Source of the DNA: Candidatus Baltobacteraceae bacterium
Lineage (GTDB): Bacteria; Vulcanimicrobiota; Vulcanimicrobiia; Vulcanimicrobiales; Vulcanimicrobiaceae
Assembly (NCBI GenBank): GCA_036488875.1
Contig: DASXGW010000008.1
Span: forward strand, 1-64,000
Direction: 5' to 3'
Length of the DNA stretch: 64,000 nt
The notes beneath the pieces are model-generated. The model saw only the letters and a list, made by a program, of their open reading frames with translations. It was not told the origin of the DNA and did no database searches. The position numbers were made by a program, and so were the translations under genes. Below are positions 1 through 44,405 of this stretch, one piece after another. How positions within the stretch are numbered: the stretch's first letter is position 1; every line of letters starts with the position of its first letter.

Positions 1-140
1 ACGGCCGCAGAAATGGCGCTCTATGCCTCAAAAGGGACACAAACCGCAAACTGACCATCCCTGGAAAGGCGACGTCCTGCCCCACACCTGGGGGGCCGTT
101 TCTGACGTGCGCTCAGGGGACCTCACCGCGTTGCGCTAAC

Positions 141-180
141 ACCCTTCGACTCCGCCCTCCCGGCTGCGCTCAGGATGACA
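141..180. repeat. Single arm of the dispersed inverted-repeat family
   Basis: This stretch reads as one arm of the repeat found in longer copies at 4303-4920 and 58737-58815: it starts with CCCTTCGACT and ends with GCTCAGGATGACA. Only one arm is present, so no hairpin is expected here. It ends about 36 bases before the preferred start of the YihY-family gene. The rest of positions 1-140 shows no gene I can support; a 17-codon open tail ending at a TGA at 52-54 could be the end of a gene lying outside the window. Confidence 0.6.
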
Positions 181-216
181 CGGCACCTCCTGTGCCTCGT
201 GGGGGATATCTTAACG

Positions 217-2639: not shown

Positions 2640-2719
2640 GAAGCACTCTTTTCGCCCCGAGCCTGCCCCGAGCATTGTCGAGGGGCGACCGCCAAGCCTA
2701 GGCGAATCACAAGCGCCGC

Positions 2720-3172
2720 ATGGTAAAGCGCGCGGTATCGGCGGGAATCGCCGGCGGAATCCTTCTCGACCTCTACCTGTGGCTGACGACGGCACTGCCG
2801 GCGCATCAAAGCATGCTGCCCGTCTGGCAGTTTATCGCTTCGACCGTCTTCGGAAACGTCGCGTTCACGAGCGCGTCGTACGCCGCAGCCGGGCTCGCCA
2901 TCCATTTTCTGGTCAGCATCGGGTGGGCCGGCGGCTACGCGTACTTCGTCCAAACGCAGCCGGCAACCAATCGTCGCTGGATCCTCGCCGGCGCCGCCTA
3001 CGGCCTCGTAGTGTACGTATTGATGCAGCTGATCCTATTGGGAGGCGGACACTTCACGCCGCCCGCGACGCCAAACGCACTCGTTATTCCCGTCATCGGT
3101 CACATCGTTTTCTTCGGCATTCCGGTCGCTTACGTCGTGCGCGCGCTGACGCCGGAAGTTTCGAAGGCGTGA
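2720..3172 (+). CDS. Four-helix membrane protein upstream of alr
   Basis: A 150-residue membrane protein with hydrophobic segments near residues 7-26, 55-78, 86-107 and 120-140. I do not recognise the family. Its TGA stop overlaps the GTG start of alr by four bases (GTGA at 3169-3172), so the two are almost certainly co-transcribed and translationally coupled. It is divergent from the Lgt-family gene, with about 80 bases between starts. A link to D-alanine or lipoprotein metabolism would be guesswork. Confidence 0.7.
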   Translation: MVKRAVSAGIAGGILLDLYLWLTTALPAHQSMLPVWQFIASTVFGNVAFTSASYAAAGLAIHFLVSIGWAGGYAYFVQTQPATNRRWILAGAAYGLVVYVLMQLILLGGGHFTPPATPNALVIPVIGHIVFFGIPVAYVVRALTPEVSKA

Positions 3173-4296
3173 TCGGAACCATAACGGTTTCGCTCGGCGC
3201 GCTGCGGCACAACGCGGCGCTCTTGCGCGAAGCGATCGCACCCGCCCGCTCGGCCTTCGTCGTTAAAGGGAACGCGTACGGACACGGCTTGGTCGAAACG
3301 GCGCTCGCGGTCGAGCCGTTCGCCGCACGCTTGTGTGTGTTTTCGATCGAGGAGGCGCTGGCGCTACGCGACGGCGGGATCACGGCGCCGATTCTCGTGC
3401 TCGGCCCGGTTCCACCGCGCGCGCTCACCGACGCGCTGCGCATCGATGCCGAAATCGCGCTTTGGAGCACGAAGGAATACCTCCGCGCGCTTGCCGGAGC
3501 CGCGCGCGAGCGGCACAGTCGCGCGCGCGTGCACGTCAAGATCAATACCGATCTCAATCGGCTCGGGCTGGAGCCGCACGAGCTCGTCGACGCGCTCGAA
3601 GAGTATCTGCATCATCCGGAAATCGAGATTGCGGGGATCTATTCGCATCTCGCGTCGGCCGAAGAGATCGACTCACCATACACGATGCATCAGCTCGAAG
3701 CGTTTGATCGCGCGCTTACGCAGGCCAAATCGCTGCTCGATAGCCGTGAGATTTCGCCGATTCGACACATCGCGGCGTCGGCTGCGGCGATGCTCTGGCC
3801 GCAGACGCGGCTCGACATGGTACGCTTCGGCATCGCCCTGTATGGACTGTGGCCCTCGCCGCAAACGCGCCAGGCGCTGGAATCGCCGCTCGATCTTCGT
3901 CCGGCGCTTTCGTACGCGTCGAAAATCATCGTCGTACGATCGATTCCGGCGGGCGCGTCGGTCGGCTACGGCGGAGCGTTTCACGCACCGCACGACATGC
4001 GGGTCGGCGTCGTGCCGGCCGGCTATGCCGACGGATTGCCGCGCGCGCTTTCCAACAAGGGCCACGTGCTCGTCGACGGCGCGATCTGCGCCATCGTCGG
4101 CCGCGTCGCGATGAACATGACGGAGATCGATTTGACCAACGCGCCGAACGCGCGCGCGGGCTCGACCGTAACGCTCATCGGACGCGACGGCGACGCGGAA
4201 GTCACCGCCGACGACTGGGCACTCTGGTCCGACACGATCAATTACGAAATCGTCACCCGTCTACCGAGCGAAATCCCGCGCGAGTACGTGGACTAA
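3169..4296 (+). CDS. alr: Alanine racemase
   Basis: A 375-residue PLP enzyme interconverting L- and D-alanine, supplying D-Ala to Ddl and MurF. The N-terminal barrel carries the PLP lysine in FVVKGNAYGHG (Lys33). The C-terminal domain carries the second catalytic base, the tyrosine in SVGYGG, followed by the conserved PAGYADGLPR and GRVAMNM segments. Length matches the family. The GTG start at 3169 overlaps the stop of the upstream membrane gene; the open frame extends further upstream, but Alr homology begins here. Its last roughly 65 bases have been copied three times in the amplified junction downstream (4421-4995). Confidence 0.95.
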   Translation: MIGTITVSLGALRHNAALLREAIAPARSAFVVKGNAYGHGLVETALAVEPFAARLCVFSIEEALALRDGGITAPILVLGPVPPRALTDALRIDAEIALWSTKEYLRALAGAARERHSRARVHVKINTDLNRLGLEPHELVDALEEYLHHPEIEIAGIYSHLASAEEIDSPYTMHQLEAFDRALTQAKSLLDSREISPIRHIAASAAAMLWPQTRLDMVRFGIALYGLWPSPQTRQALESPLDLRPALSYASKIIVVRSIPAGASVGYGGAFHAPHDMRVGVVPAGYADGLPRALSNKGHVLVDGAICAIVGRVAMNMTEIDLTNAPNARAGSTVTLIGRDGDAEVTADDWALWSDTINYEIVTRLPSEIPREYVD

Positions 4297-4302
4297 CTCG
4301 TT

Positions 4303-4414
4303 GTCATCCTGAGCGTAGGCGCGTAGCGCCGAAGTCGAAGGGCAGGCGAGATACATGTGTGTGGCGCCGCCCTTCGACTTCGCGCCCTCCGGGCGCTACG
4401 CTCAGGATGACAAC
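4303..4414. repeat. Inverted-repeat element, copy A
   Basis: A roughly 112-base element of two arms in opposite orientation. The left arm begins GTCATCCTGAGCGTAGGCGC and ends GTCGAAGGGC. The right arm begins GCCCTTCGACTTCGCGCC and ends GCTCAGGATGACAAC. They are separated by a short spacer containing ATGTGTGTGG. The arms are complementary over about 40 bases with small bulges, so a long hairpin is possible. It sits directly after the alr stop and may act as a terminator. No coding capacity for a transposase is present. Confidence 0.85.
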
Positions 4415-4420
4415 ATTGGC

Positions 4421-4520
4421 GACACGATCAATGACGAAATCGTCACCCGTCTACCGAGCGAGATCCCGCGCGAATACGTTGACTAACTCCGATGCGTTAG
4501 TTTACGGCGGCTATCGCCGA
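4421..4520. pseudogene. Duplicated alr tail plus hisA tail, copy 1
   Basis: Positions 4421-4489 repeat the last codons of alr and its stop (DTIN, EIVTRLPSEIPREYVD, stop) with a few substitutions. Positions 4497-4520 repeat the last eight codons of hisA, read on the minus strand. The block is therefore a copy of the convergent alr/hisA junction, lying between two inverted-repeat elements. Neither fragment can encode a functional protein. Confidence 0.85.
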
Positions 4521-4528
4521 CCGCCCCT

Positions 4529-4694
4529 GTCATCCTGAGCGTAGGCGCTTAGCGCCGAAGTCGAAGGGCAGGCGAGATCTTTGTCATCCTGAGCGTAGGC
4601 GCGTGGCGCCGAAGTCGAAGGGCAGGCGAGATAAATGTGTGTGGCGCCCGCCCTTCGACTTCGCGCCCTCCGGGCGCTACGCTCAGGATGACAA
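4529..4694. repeat. Inverted-repeat element, copy B, with doubled left arm
   Basis: This is the same element as copy A, but its left arm occurs twice in tandem (about 4529-4578 and 4583-4632) before the spacer and the single right arm ending near 4694. The two left arms differ slightly (GGCGCTTAGCGCC versus GGCGCGTGGCGCC). The doubling suggests slippage or recombination between arms. Confidence 0.85.
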
Positions 4695-4701
4695 CATGGG
4701 C

Positions 4702-4799
4702 GACACGATCAATTACGAAATCCACCCGTCTACCGAGCGAGATCCCGCGCGAATACCTTGACTAACTCCGATGCGTTAGTTTACGGCGGCTATCGCCGA
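4702..4799. pseudogene. Duplicated alr tail plus hisA tail, copy 2
   Basis: This is a second copy of the junction. The alr-derived part (4702-4769) carries a 2-base deletion after GAAATC, so it no longer preserves the alr frame, and it reads GAATACCTTGACTAA at the end. The hisA-derived tail occupies 4776-4799. It lies between inverted-repeat elements B and C. Confidence 0.85.
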
Positions 4800-4807
4800 C
4801 CGTCCCT

Positions 4808-4920
4808 GTCATCCTGAGCGTAGGCGCGTAGCGCCGAAGTCGAAGGGCAGGCGAGATAAATGTGTGTGACGCCCGCCCTTCGACTTCGCGCCCTCCGGGC
4901 GCTACGGTCAGGATGACAAC
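4808..4920. repeat. Inverted-repeat element, copy C
   Basis: This is the third copy of the roughly 113-base element, with the same arms, the same GCGAGATAAATGTGTGTG spacer as copy B, and the same end at GGATGACAAC. One base in the right arm differs (CTACGGTCAGG against CTACGCTCAGG). It is followed by a third alr-tail copy at 4927-4995 that runs straight into the genuine hisA 3' end. Confidence 0.85.
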
Positions 4921-4926
4921 ATCGGC

Positions 4927-4995
4927 GACACGATCAATTACGAAGTCGTCACTCGTCTACCGAGCGAGATCCCGCGCGAATACGTTGACTAACTC
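4927..4995 (+). pseudogene. Duplicated alr tail, copy 3, abutting genuine hisA end
   Basis: About 69 bases match the alr 3' end including the stop, with the protein tail reading DTINYEVVTRLPSEIPREYVD. It lies seven bases from the genuine hisA stop. Without the amplification this would be the expected arrangement of alr directly convergent with hisA, so either this copy or the intact alr end preserves the ancestral junction. Confidence 0.8.
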
Positions 4996-5002
4996 CGTGG
5001 TG

Positions 5003-5722
5003 TTAGTTTACGGCGGCTATCGCCGATTTTAGGTCGATCGTGCCTTTGTAGAGCGCGCTGCCGACGATGCACGCGTCGACGGTTAACGGCACCGAGCGCT
5101 TGAGCAGCTTGAGATCGTCGATGTTGCGGGCGCCGCCGTTTGCGGTGATCTTCACTTCGGCGGCGCTGGCTACTTCGTTGAGCGCGTCGATATCGTACCC
5201 CTCACCCATGCCGTCGCGGCGAATTTCGGTGAACAGAATGCGCGCGACGCCCCACATGGCGACGCGCTTGACGAGCGCATCGCGGTTGACCGGGGAACGC
5301 TCTTGCCAACCGTGCGTTGCCACTTCTTGGCCACGCGCGTCGATCGCGGCGATAACCTTCTGCGGAAAGCGTCCGATGATGTGGCGCGCCATCCGTTCGT
5401 CTTCGACCAGGATCGTTCCGATGATGATTTCCGCGGCGCCCGCGCCAAATGCGGCTTCGGCTTGTTTGACCACGCGAATGCCGCCGCCGACCTGCACCGG
5501 CACGTCGACCGCGCCGCAGATCGCTTCGACCGCCGCCTGATTCTCGCCCGAGCCGAGCGCGCCGTCGAGGTCGACGACGTGCAGCCGGCGCGCGCCGGCG
5601 GCGACGAACGCCTTCGCACGATCCACCGGGTCGCCGTCGTAGGCCGTCGACGTTTCGAGATTGCCTTGCTCCATGCGCACGCATTTACCGCCGCGCAAGT
5701 CGATGGCCGGAATCACCTGCAT
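5003..5722 (-). CDS. hisA: ProFAR isomerase (histidine biosynthesis)
   Basis: A 239-residue TIM barrel, 1-(5-phosphoribosyl)-5-[(5-phosphoribosylamino)methylideneamino]imidazole-4-carboxamide isomerase, the fourth step of histidine synthesis. The N-terminus MQVIPAIDLRGGKCVR carries the catalytic Asp8. The second half has TEIRRDGMGEGYD, and phosphate-binding glycines occur in VQVGGGIR and ITANGGARN. A strong AGGAGG lies upstream of the ATG. It follows the citrate synthase stop by 10 bases, so the two are likely co-transcribed. No other his gene is present in the window. Confidence 0.95.
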   Translation of the reverse strand: MQVIPAIDLRGGKCVRMEQGNLETSTAYDGDPVDRAKAFVAAGARRLHVVDLDGALGSGENQAAVEAICGAVDVPVQVGGGIRVVKQAEAAFGAGAAEIIIGTILVEDERMARHIIGRFPQKVIAAIDARGQEVATHGWQERSPVNRDALVKRVAMWGVARILFTEIRRDGMGEGYDIDALNEVASAAEVKITANGGARNIDDLKLLKRSVPLTVDACIVGSALYKGTIDLKSAIAAVN

Positions 5723-43817: not shown

Positions 43818-44135
43818 CTAGTGCTTGCGCTCCTCGCCCCCACCCAGCTTTTTCTTCGCCTCGGCAATCAGCTTCTTGACCTTCTGACCGCCTTTGTGGC
43901 CGATCTCTTCGTAAAAGTCGGAGCCGTACTTTTCTTTGACGACTTTTCCGCCTTTTTGACCGATGGATTCGTAGAACTCGACGCCGTGCCGATCGCGTGT
44001 GGCCTTGCCACCTTTGCGTCCGATGTCCTCATAGAACGTCGAACCATACCGATCGCGTACGGTGTCGCCACCTTTTTTTCCGGCTTCGCGCACGGACATT
44101 TCACGCTTCGCTGCGTCGTCGTTCTTATCAGCCAT
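43818..44135 (-). CDS. KGG-repeat stress protein (con-10/GsiB-like)
   Basis: A 105-residue hydrophilic protein with a repeated roughly 20-residue unit of the form GGxxxRDRYGSxFYExIGxKGG, seen about four times (EAGKKGGDTVRDRYG, EDIGRKGGKATRDRHG, ESIGQKGGKVVKEKYG, EEIGHKGGQKVKKL). It ends in a lysine-rich tail. Such proteins are linked to desiccation and general stress (GsiB, Em-like) and are probably disordered. The end is six bases from the convergent lipoprotein stop. Confidence 0.85.
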   Translation of the reverse strand: MADKNDDAAKREMSVREAGKKGGDTVRDRYGSTFYEDIGRKGGKATRDRHGVEFYESIGQKGGKVVKEKYGSDFYEEIGHKGGQKVKKLIAEAKKKLGGGEERKH

Positions 44136-44186: not shown

Positions 44187-44405
44187 TTAGGTTGACGCCT
44201 TGCGTTTCGGGCGCTGACCGCCTTTTTGGCCGATGACTTCGTAAAACGACGGGCCGTACTTGCTCTTCGTCGCTTCACCGCCTTTGCGGCCGATTTCTTC
44301 ATAAAACTCGGAGCCGTATTTGGCTTTGACTCGTTCGCCGCCACGGCGTCCGGCTTCGCGAACGCTCATGCCGCCGCCGGCGGGTCCAGGGTCTTGCAGT
44401 GCCAT
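44187..44405 (-). CDS. KGG-repeat stress protein, second copy
   Basis: A 72-residue paralogue: MALQDPGPAGGGMSVREAGRRGGERVKAKYG, then EEIGRKGGEATKSKYG and EVIGQKGGQ, ending with basic residues. It has one repeat fewer than its neighbour. The ATG at 44405 is preferred because the frame upstream is not protein-like. The tandem arrangement suggests joint stress-controlled expression. Confidence 0.8.
   Translation of the reverse strand: MALQDPGPAGGGMSVREAGRRGGERVKAKYGSEFYEEIGRKGGEATKSKYGPSFYEVIGQKGGQRPKRKAST

Follow-up and report, generated by a model that had tools for sequence, protein, structure and literature searches.

The junction between the convergent genes alr and hisA of this Candidatus Baltobacteraceae bacterium is probably best read as a cluster of REPINs (inverted pairs of REP units) from a REP family that has a GIY-YIG nuclease as its likely mobiliser, with local amplification of the tails of both genes. 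The array spans positions 4230-5026 of the window, i.e. the whole stretch of 64,000 nucleotides that was analysed (G000:C8:1-64000), and is located inside a 346-kb contig of a genome of 3.7 Mb in 15 contigs. It contains the alr 3' end (69-70 nt) four times, the hisA 3' end (24 nt) three times, three inverted-repeat elements of about 115 nt (E1, E2, and E3), and one further arm, in the order alr (tail 1), E1, tail 2, hisA tail, extra arm, E2, tail 3, hisA tail, E3, tail 4, and hisA. The intact alr gene, coding for alanine racemase (3169..4296, forward strand), was recognised as an open reading frame with 77% identity over its full length to that of a same-genus relative, and its true end constitutes tail 1 (about 69 nt; 4230-4298, forward strand). 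It is followed by REPIN E1 (4301..4415, no strand assigned), which was delimited by repeats, junctions, and folding, and which consists of two inverted REP units with their heads (TGTCATCC) facing outward; its predicted single-strand DNA fold reaches -54.6 kcal/mol (z -12.5). Repeat searches placed the remaining parts, namely alr tail copy 2, a non-coding relic (4420..4488, forward strand); a 24-nt hisA tail relic (4497..4520, reverse strand); a lone REP arm preceding E2 (4528..4578, forward strand); REPIN E2 (4581..4696, no strand assigned); alr tail copy 3, a relic with a 2-nt deletion (4701..4767, forward strand); a second hisA tail relic (4776..4799, reverse strand); REPIN E3 (4807..4921, no strand assigned); and alr tail copy 4, a relic (4926..4994, forward strand) that adjoins the true 3' end of hisA (5003-5026). 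The latter gene (5003..5722, reverse strand) is an intact open reading frame, with 93% identity in a same-genus relative. Elsewhere in the window, two imperfect tandem repeats with a 60-nt period occur at 43951-44077 and 44217-44342.

Reading of the sequence and repeat searches thus confirmed the original prediction of four alr tails and three hisA tails with inverted-repeat elements between them, as well as that of a doubled left arm in its copy B, which corresponds to the extra arm before E2. The predicted invariable succession of alr tail and hisA tail holds for tails 2-4 but not for tail 1, belonging to alr itself, where an element comes directly and no hisA tail is found. Likewise, the periodicity was recovered, with start-to-start spacings of 279-280 and 226-227 nt instead of about 281 and 225 nt, and the inverted-repeat element proved slightly longer than the predicted length of about 112 nt. 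The repeats are far above chance (TRF score 1040), and the array copies are 91-96% identical. As these copies differ from each other by 4-9%, the array is neither brand-new nor a simple duplication in the assembly. An assembly artefact (collapsed or duplicated reads), which the draft state of the genome might have favoured, is therefore extremely improbable, the more so since the genome has similar arrays at other places and the array lies inside a long contig. The comparison with a relative that had been proposed as a check bore out the insertion, in that the stop codons of alr and hisA overlap at the equivalent junction of the same-genus genome G001, where the element is absent. Among the other relatives compared, only L009 and L014 displayed matches to the element near alr.

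Strong hairpins between convergent genes might also represent intrinsic terminators in series, selected to insulate both genes, and a string of possible hairpin terminators had indeed been predicted. This part of the prediction did not stand, as the elements possess neither T-tracts nor a terminator-like site, the sole terminator-like site of the junction being the hisA end (5011-5025), and as REPs are present at many other intergenic sites. Because of the absent T-tracts, a terminator array was rejected, its probability being very low.

Genome-wide searches revealed what the first reading had not seen, namely that the alr/hisA elements are REP units of a mobile family that is linked to a nuclease gene and extends over the whole genome. 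Each arm is a REP of about 48 nt, a short palindromic hairpin with many intergenic copies, present at no fewer than 56 clusters. Its invariant head (TGTCATCCTGAGCGTAG) and invariant tail (GAAGTCGAAGGGC) enclose a variable apex; in this genome, the head (TGTCATCC) carries TGTC, followed by AT. Heads with 0-1 mismatch numbered 122 in the genome, versus two for a reversed control pattern. The 71 full REP units retrieved contained 38 distinct apices, 27 of which form a stem of 4 bp or more without mismatch (2.7 on average and 9 at most after shuffling), and these 27 use 11 different stem strands. Such compensated stems of varied sequence indicate conservation of the hairpin despite sequence change. 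Single REPs make up 45 of the 56 clusters, and inverted REP pairs with a short spacer, i.e. REPINs, were found as E1-E3, at C2:47430, and at C4:442. A further divergent REP copy occurs in the window itself (118..181, reverse strand, limits approximate), with a 13-mer head at 167-179. An Rfam search returned chance-level miRNA matches only. Tandem copies of the head alone, in units of 24-30 nt comprising about 9 nt of flank plus TGTCATCCTGAGCGTAG, precede a full REP at L136:1038-1140, at L039:1187-1247, and in L200 (G045); these suggest that the tip of the hairpin was partially duplicated more than once.

In the array, a unit made up of a REPIN, an alr tail, and a hisA tail has been amplified locally in tandem, i.e. 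it consists of tandem REPIN copies that include flanking sequence. Blocks 2 and 3 share the same abnormal junction between hisA tail and element, in which CCGCCCC or CCGTCCC is followed by the REP head. This common aberrant junction implies that one junction was formed once and was later amplified, as by unequal exchange or slippage. Furthermore, a genome-wide survey showed duplicated flanks, hence direct repeats of the kind that a transposon with target-site duplication leaves, at only two of the 56 REP clusters, which argues that ordinary insertion is not their cause and that they are not target-site duplications. The other case (C5:11023-11154; L131:986-1180) concerns a single REP with about 70 nt of a neighbouring gene end, repeated twice. 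The claim that duplication proceeded via recombination or slippage instead of simple insertion is hence supported by both the common junction and the survey. A long target-site duplication, by which a flank of approximately 70-100 nt would be copied at each REPIN insertion, would fit the 69-nt direct repeats of the alr tail around E1; as 54 of the 56 clusters are without flanking duplication and none is obvious in pairs of empty and occupied sites of relatives, this explanation was largely refuted by the survey and is highly improbable. An almost even chance can be given to a second explanation, according to which the array arose purely from recombination between ordinary repeats, whether recA-dependent or by slippage, without any REP-specific enzyme at this locus. 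Unequal exchange predicts precisely the one junction that blocks 2 and 3 have in common, and tandem REPIN clusters including their flanks occur in Pseudomonas fluorescens (PMC3116915). However, recombination of this kind leaves unexplained the initial events, namely the succession of tail 1, E1, and tail 2 and that of hisA tail, CCGCCCC, and element, with breakpoints that lack homology, and the genome possesses the second duplication of a REP with a gene tail. It accounts for the local amplification only and is compatible with a wider REP/nuclease system.

For REPs of the GTAG type, the accepted partner is a RAYT transposase. In the REPs of this genome, too, the apical palindrome comes after a GTAG tetranucleotide, as in RAYT-type REPs, a resemblance that counts against a GIY-YIG mobiliser; yet no Y1 transposase is present. 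Indeed, no Y1_Tnp domain (PF01797), and thus no HUH transposase gene linked to REPs as in RAYT/REPtron systems, was found in this genome, and a Y1 transposase was present in four of the 99 same-family genomes, none of the four being REP-rich. A RAYT was hence rejected as the mobiliser.

The densest REP arrays of the genome (9 and 4 REPs, in opposite orientation) flank a gene coding for a 103-amino-acid GIY-YIG protein. Its homologues were sampled at 50 loci of the same family and at 35 loci of named organisms in several phyla, with 21 UPF0213-type GIY-YIG genes of the same family (including L052) as controls. Long inverted repeats between the left and right flanks occurred at 32 of 44 family loci and 17 of 33 loci from other phyla, versus none of the 21 controls (p 4e-9 and 5e-7), the repeats differing in sequence (for example TCCTGAGCTTGTCGAAGGA, TGGTGAGCCTGTCGAACCA, GGCTGAGCTTGTCGAAGCC, and GGTTGAGGAGG...GTCTCGAAACC). 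A strict scan for CGTC-type REPs around the first 35 homologues found nothing except in Caedibacter, and a more general rule was therefore sought. This rule describes a hairpin of the form N4-GAG-loop-TCGA-N4', in which N4' is complementary to N4 and the stems differ between organisms. A hairpin of this kind was present within 350 nt of the gene at 43/50 family loci and 31/35 loci of other phyla, compared with 2/21 control genes; hairpin density amounted to 4.05-4.68 per kb near the gene versus 0.14-0.47 per kb beyond 800 nt, and altered hairpin cores gave almost no matches. As the rule had been derived from these family and other-phyla loci themselves, it was tested without modification on further loci, from the sphingomonad order, where it recovered a hairpin at 23 of 24 REP-type genes versus none of six other GIY-YIG genes. 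Similarly, all five out-of-sample loci from plasmid and viral collections carried the hairpin, a scan of viral contigs having yielded two relatives only, whereas two of the 27 pooled non-clade GIY-YIG genes did. Clade loci without a recognised hairpin numbered 7/50, 4/35, and 1/24 in the family, other-phyla, and sphingomonad sets, respectively. On either side of the gene, most hairpins at the family loci face away from it (74/80 on the left, 67/74 on the right). Thus, one GIY-YIG clade is specifically associated with GAG/TCGA hairpins across several phyla, the hairpins being found in Pseudomonadota, Actinomycetota, Chloroflexota, Ignavibacteriota, and Bacteroidota, besides the lineage of the window.

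The protein itself matches the PF01541 domain (61.9 bits), with the catalytic Tyr, Arg, and Glu of the GIY-YIG superfamily, and residues Y7, Y17, G19, R27, H31, and E65 are invariant or nearly so. Its fold was predicted with a mean pLDDT of 91, the best PDB matches being UPF0213 proteins (1zg2 and 1ywl), followed by Slx1. The REP-type genes form a single clade (support 100/100), apart from the UPF0213-type (YhbQ-type) controls, and W71 is invariant in their products, its position being occupied by L in UPF0213. Slx1 is a structure-specific nuclease of branched DNA. Given the predicted resemblance to its fold, the GIY-YIG protein is a plausible candidate for a structure-specific nuclease acting on the extruded REP hairpin.

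The REP-type GIY-YIG gene is mobile. It occupies sites that are empty in relatives, and shared neighbourhoods were found for 16 of 1225 pairs of REP-type genes, versus 188 of 210 pairs of the syntenic controls. At one convergent junction across a genus, one species displays a REP-gene-REP arrangement and another its own gene with REPs, while in other species the site holds REPs alone or an unrelated ORF, and in several it holds nothing. REP copies, counted with one exact 13-mer and with kinship corrected to the genus level only, are far more numerous in the 50 genomes with the gene than in the 49 without it (p=2e-11; p=5e-5 at the genus level). Small ORFs between REPs were observed as well. 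An ORF of about 100 amino acids for a small membrane protein is situated between REP pieces in G059 (C201; L201, reverse complement, approximately 2690-3180), and in the source genome small ORFs between outward-facing REPs, at L037:1641-2247 (C8) and L044:1065-1434 (C13), code for a coiled-coil/TM protein and a small membrane protein, respectively.

The main rival to a mobiliser role regards the GIY-YIG gene as a passenger, or as a selfish gene of the homing type that prefers REP-rich intergenic sites, the REPs being spread by another agent such as the replication machinery or another enzyme. Indeed, the G059 ORF is bracketed by REPs at the very junction where G043 has a REP-GIY-REP arrangement, so that REPs may carry other cargo; since they can flank unrelated small ORFs, also in the genome under study, the nuclease could be such cargo. 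Moreover, REP-rich genomes without a detected clade gene exist, namely G045 (83 copies; 65% complete), G095 (104 copies; 91% complete), and G101 (31 copies; 76% complete). Against this, cognate hairpins consistently bracket this single clade in several phyla but not the other GIY-YIG genes of the same genomes, their orientation at the family loci is outward on either flank, and REP number tracks gene presence. A passenger role is therefore rather unlikely.

In the favoured reading, a REP of the bulged-hairpin family (stem-GAG-loop-TCGA-stem) was probably inserted as an inverted pair directly after the alr stop codon, and tandem amplification then took in the neighbouring tails of both alr and hisA. 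The GIY-YIG protein, with its Slx1-like fold, may recognise the extruded REP hairpin and nick or cut alongside it, whereupon repair or replication restart at the break would copy REPs to new sites. The same breaks might cause local template switching or unequal exchange, and might in this way have generated the alr/hisA array.

Several known systems resemble this arrangement in part. In Pseudomonas fluorescens SBW25, REPINs are inverted REP pairs that also form tandem clusters including their flanks (Bertels and Rainey 2011, PMC3116915), which makes the alr/hisA array a new member of a known arrangement; in both cases, clusters adjoin the partner nuclease gene. However, the SBW25 REPs are of the GTAG type and paired with a RAYT (an HUH tyrosine nuclease), whereas here the core is GAG/TCGA, the partner is a GIY-YIG protein without any RAYT, and most REPs are singlets. 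As in the REPtron, a tnpA_REP gene flanked by REPs (PMC8266576, PMC3733652), a small nuclease gene is located between inverted copies of the REP that it presumably recognises, and the hairpins have a conserved bulge; unlike in the REPtron, the nuclease fold is an unrelated one. Also, the gene is highly mobile and non-syntenic here, while TnpA_REP is presented in the literature as a domesticated transposase (PMC8266576, PMC3733652). CGTC-tagged REPs, 'not associated to transposase genes' (Di Nocera et al. 2013, PMC3733652), possess stems of 8-9 bp and loops of 4-5 nt (PMC3733652). The REPs of this genome share the CGTC/TGTC tag, in the head TGTCATCC, but instead of such a stem with AT/AT at its base they have a short outer stem, a GAG/TCGA bulge, and a variable apex, and the tag is missing from most members outside this genus and in most other phyla. 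In Caedibacter sp. (L089:2230-2915), three CGTC-type REP hairpins lie no farther than 300 nt from a divergent GIY-YIG gene, a hint at a possible GIY-YIG partner for CGTC REPs, too. Finally, GIY-YIG homing endonucleases and UPF0213/YhbQ-type proteins share the PF01541 domain and the conserved Y, R, and E, but REP-type genes are REP-bracketed and mobile, unlike the syntenic UPF0213 genes.

REP-like repeats without a known mobiliser are very common. The main REP survey describes a whole REP super-family without a dedicated transposase and leaves the matter open; by its stem geometry, the family studied here is a different one. On balance, the data favour an undescribed class of REP system, in which a dedicated Slx1-like GIY-YIG nuclease, itself mobile, would move GAG/TCGA bulged hairpins in several phyla; this would be a counterpart of the RAYT/REP system with an unrelated enzyme. 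The open-licence papers searched included none that connects GIY-YIG genes with REPs, an earlier report elsewhere being possible. A small nuclease clade that is bracketed by such hairpins across phyla represents a directly testable candidate mobiliser, and its link to REPs provides a way to explain local rearrangements like the duplicated gene ends between convergent genes.
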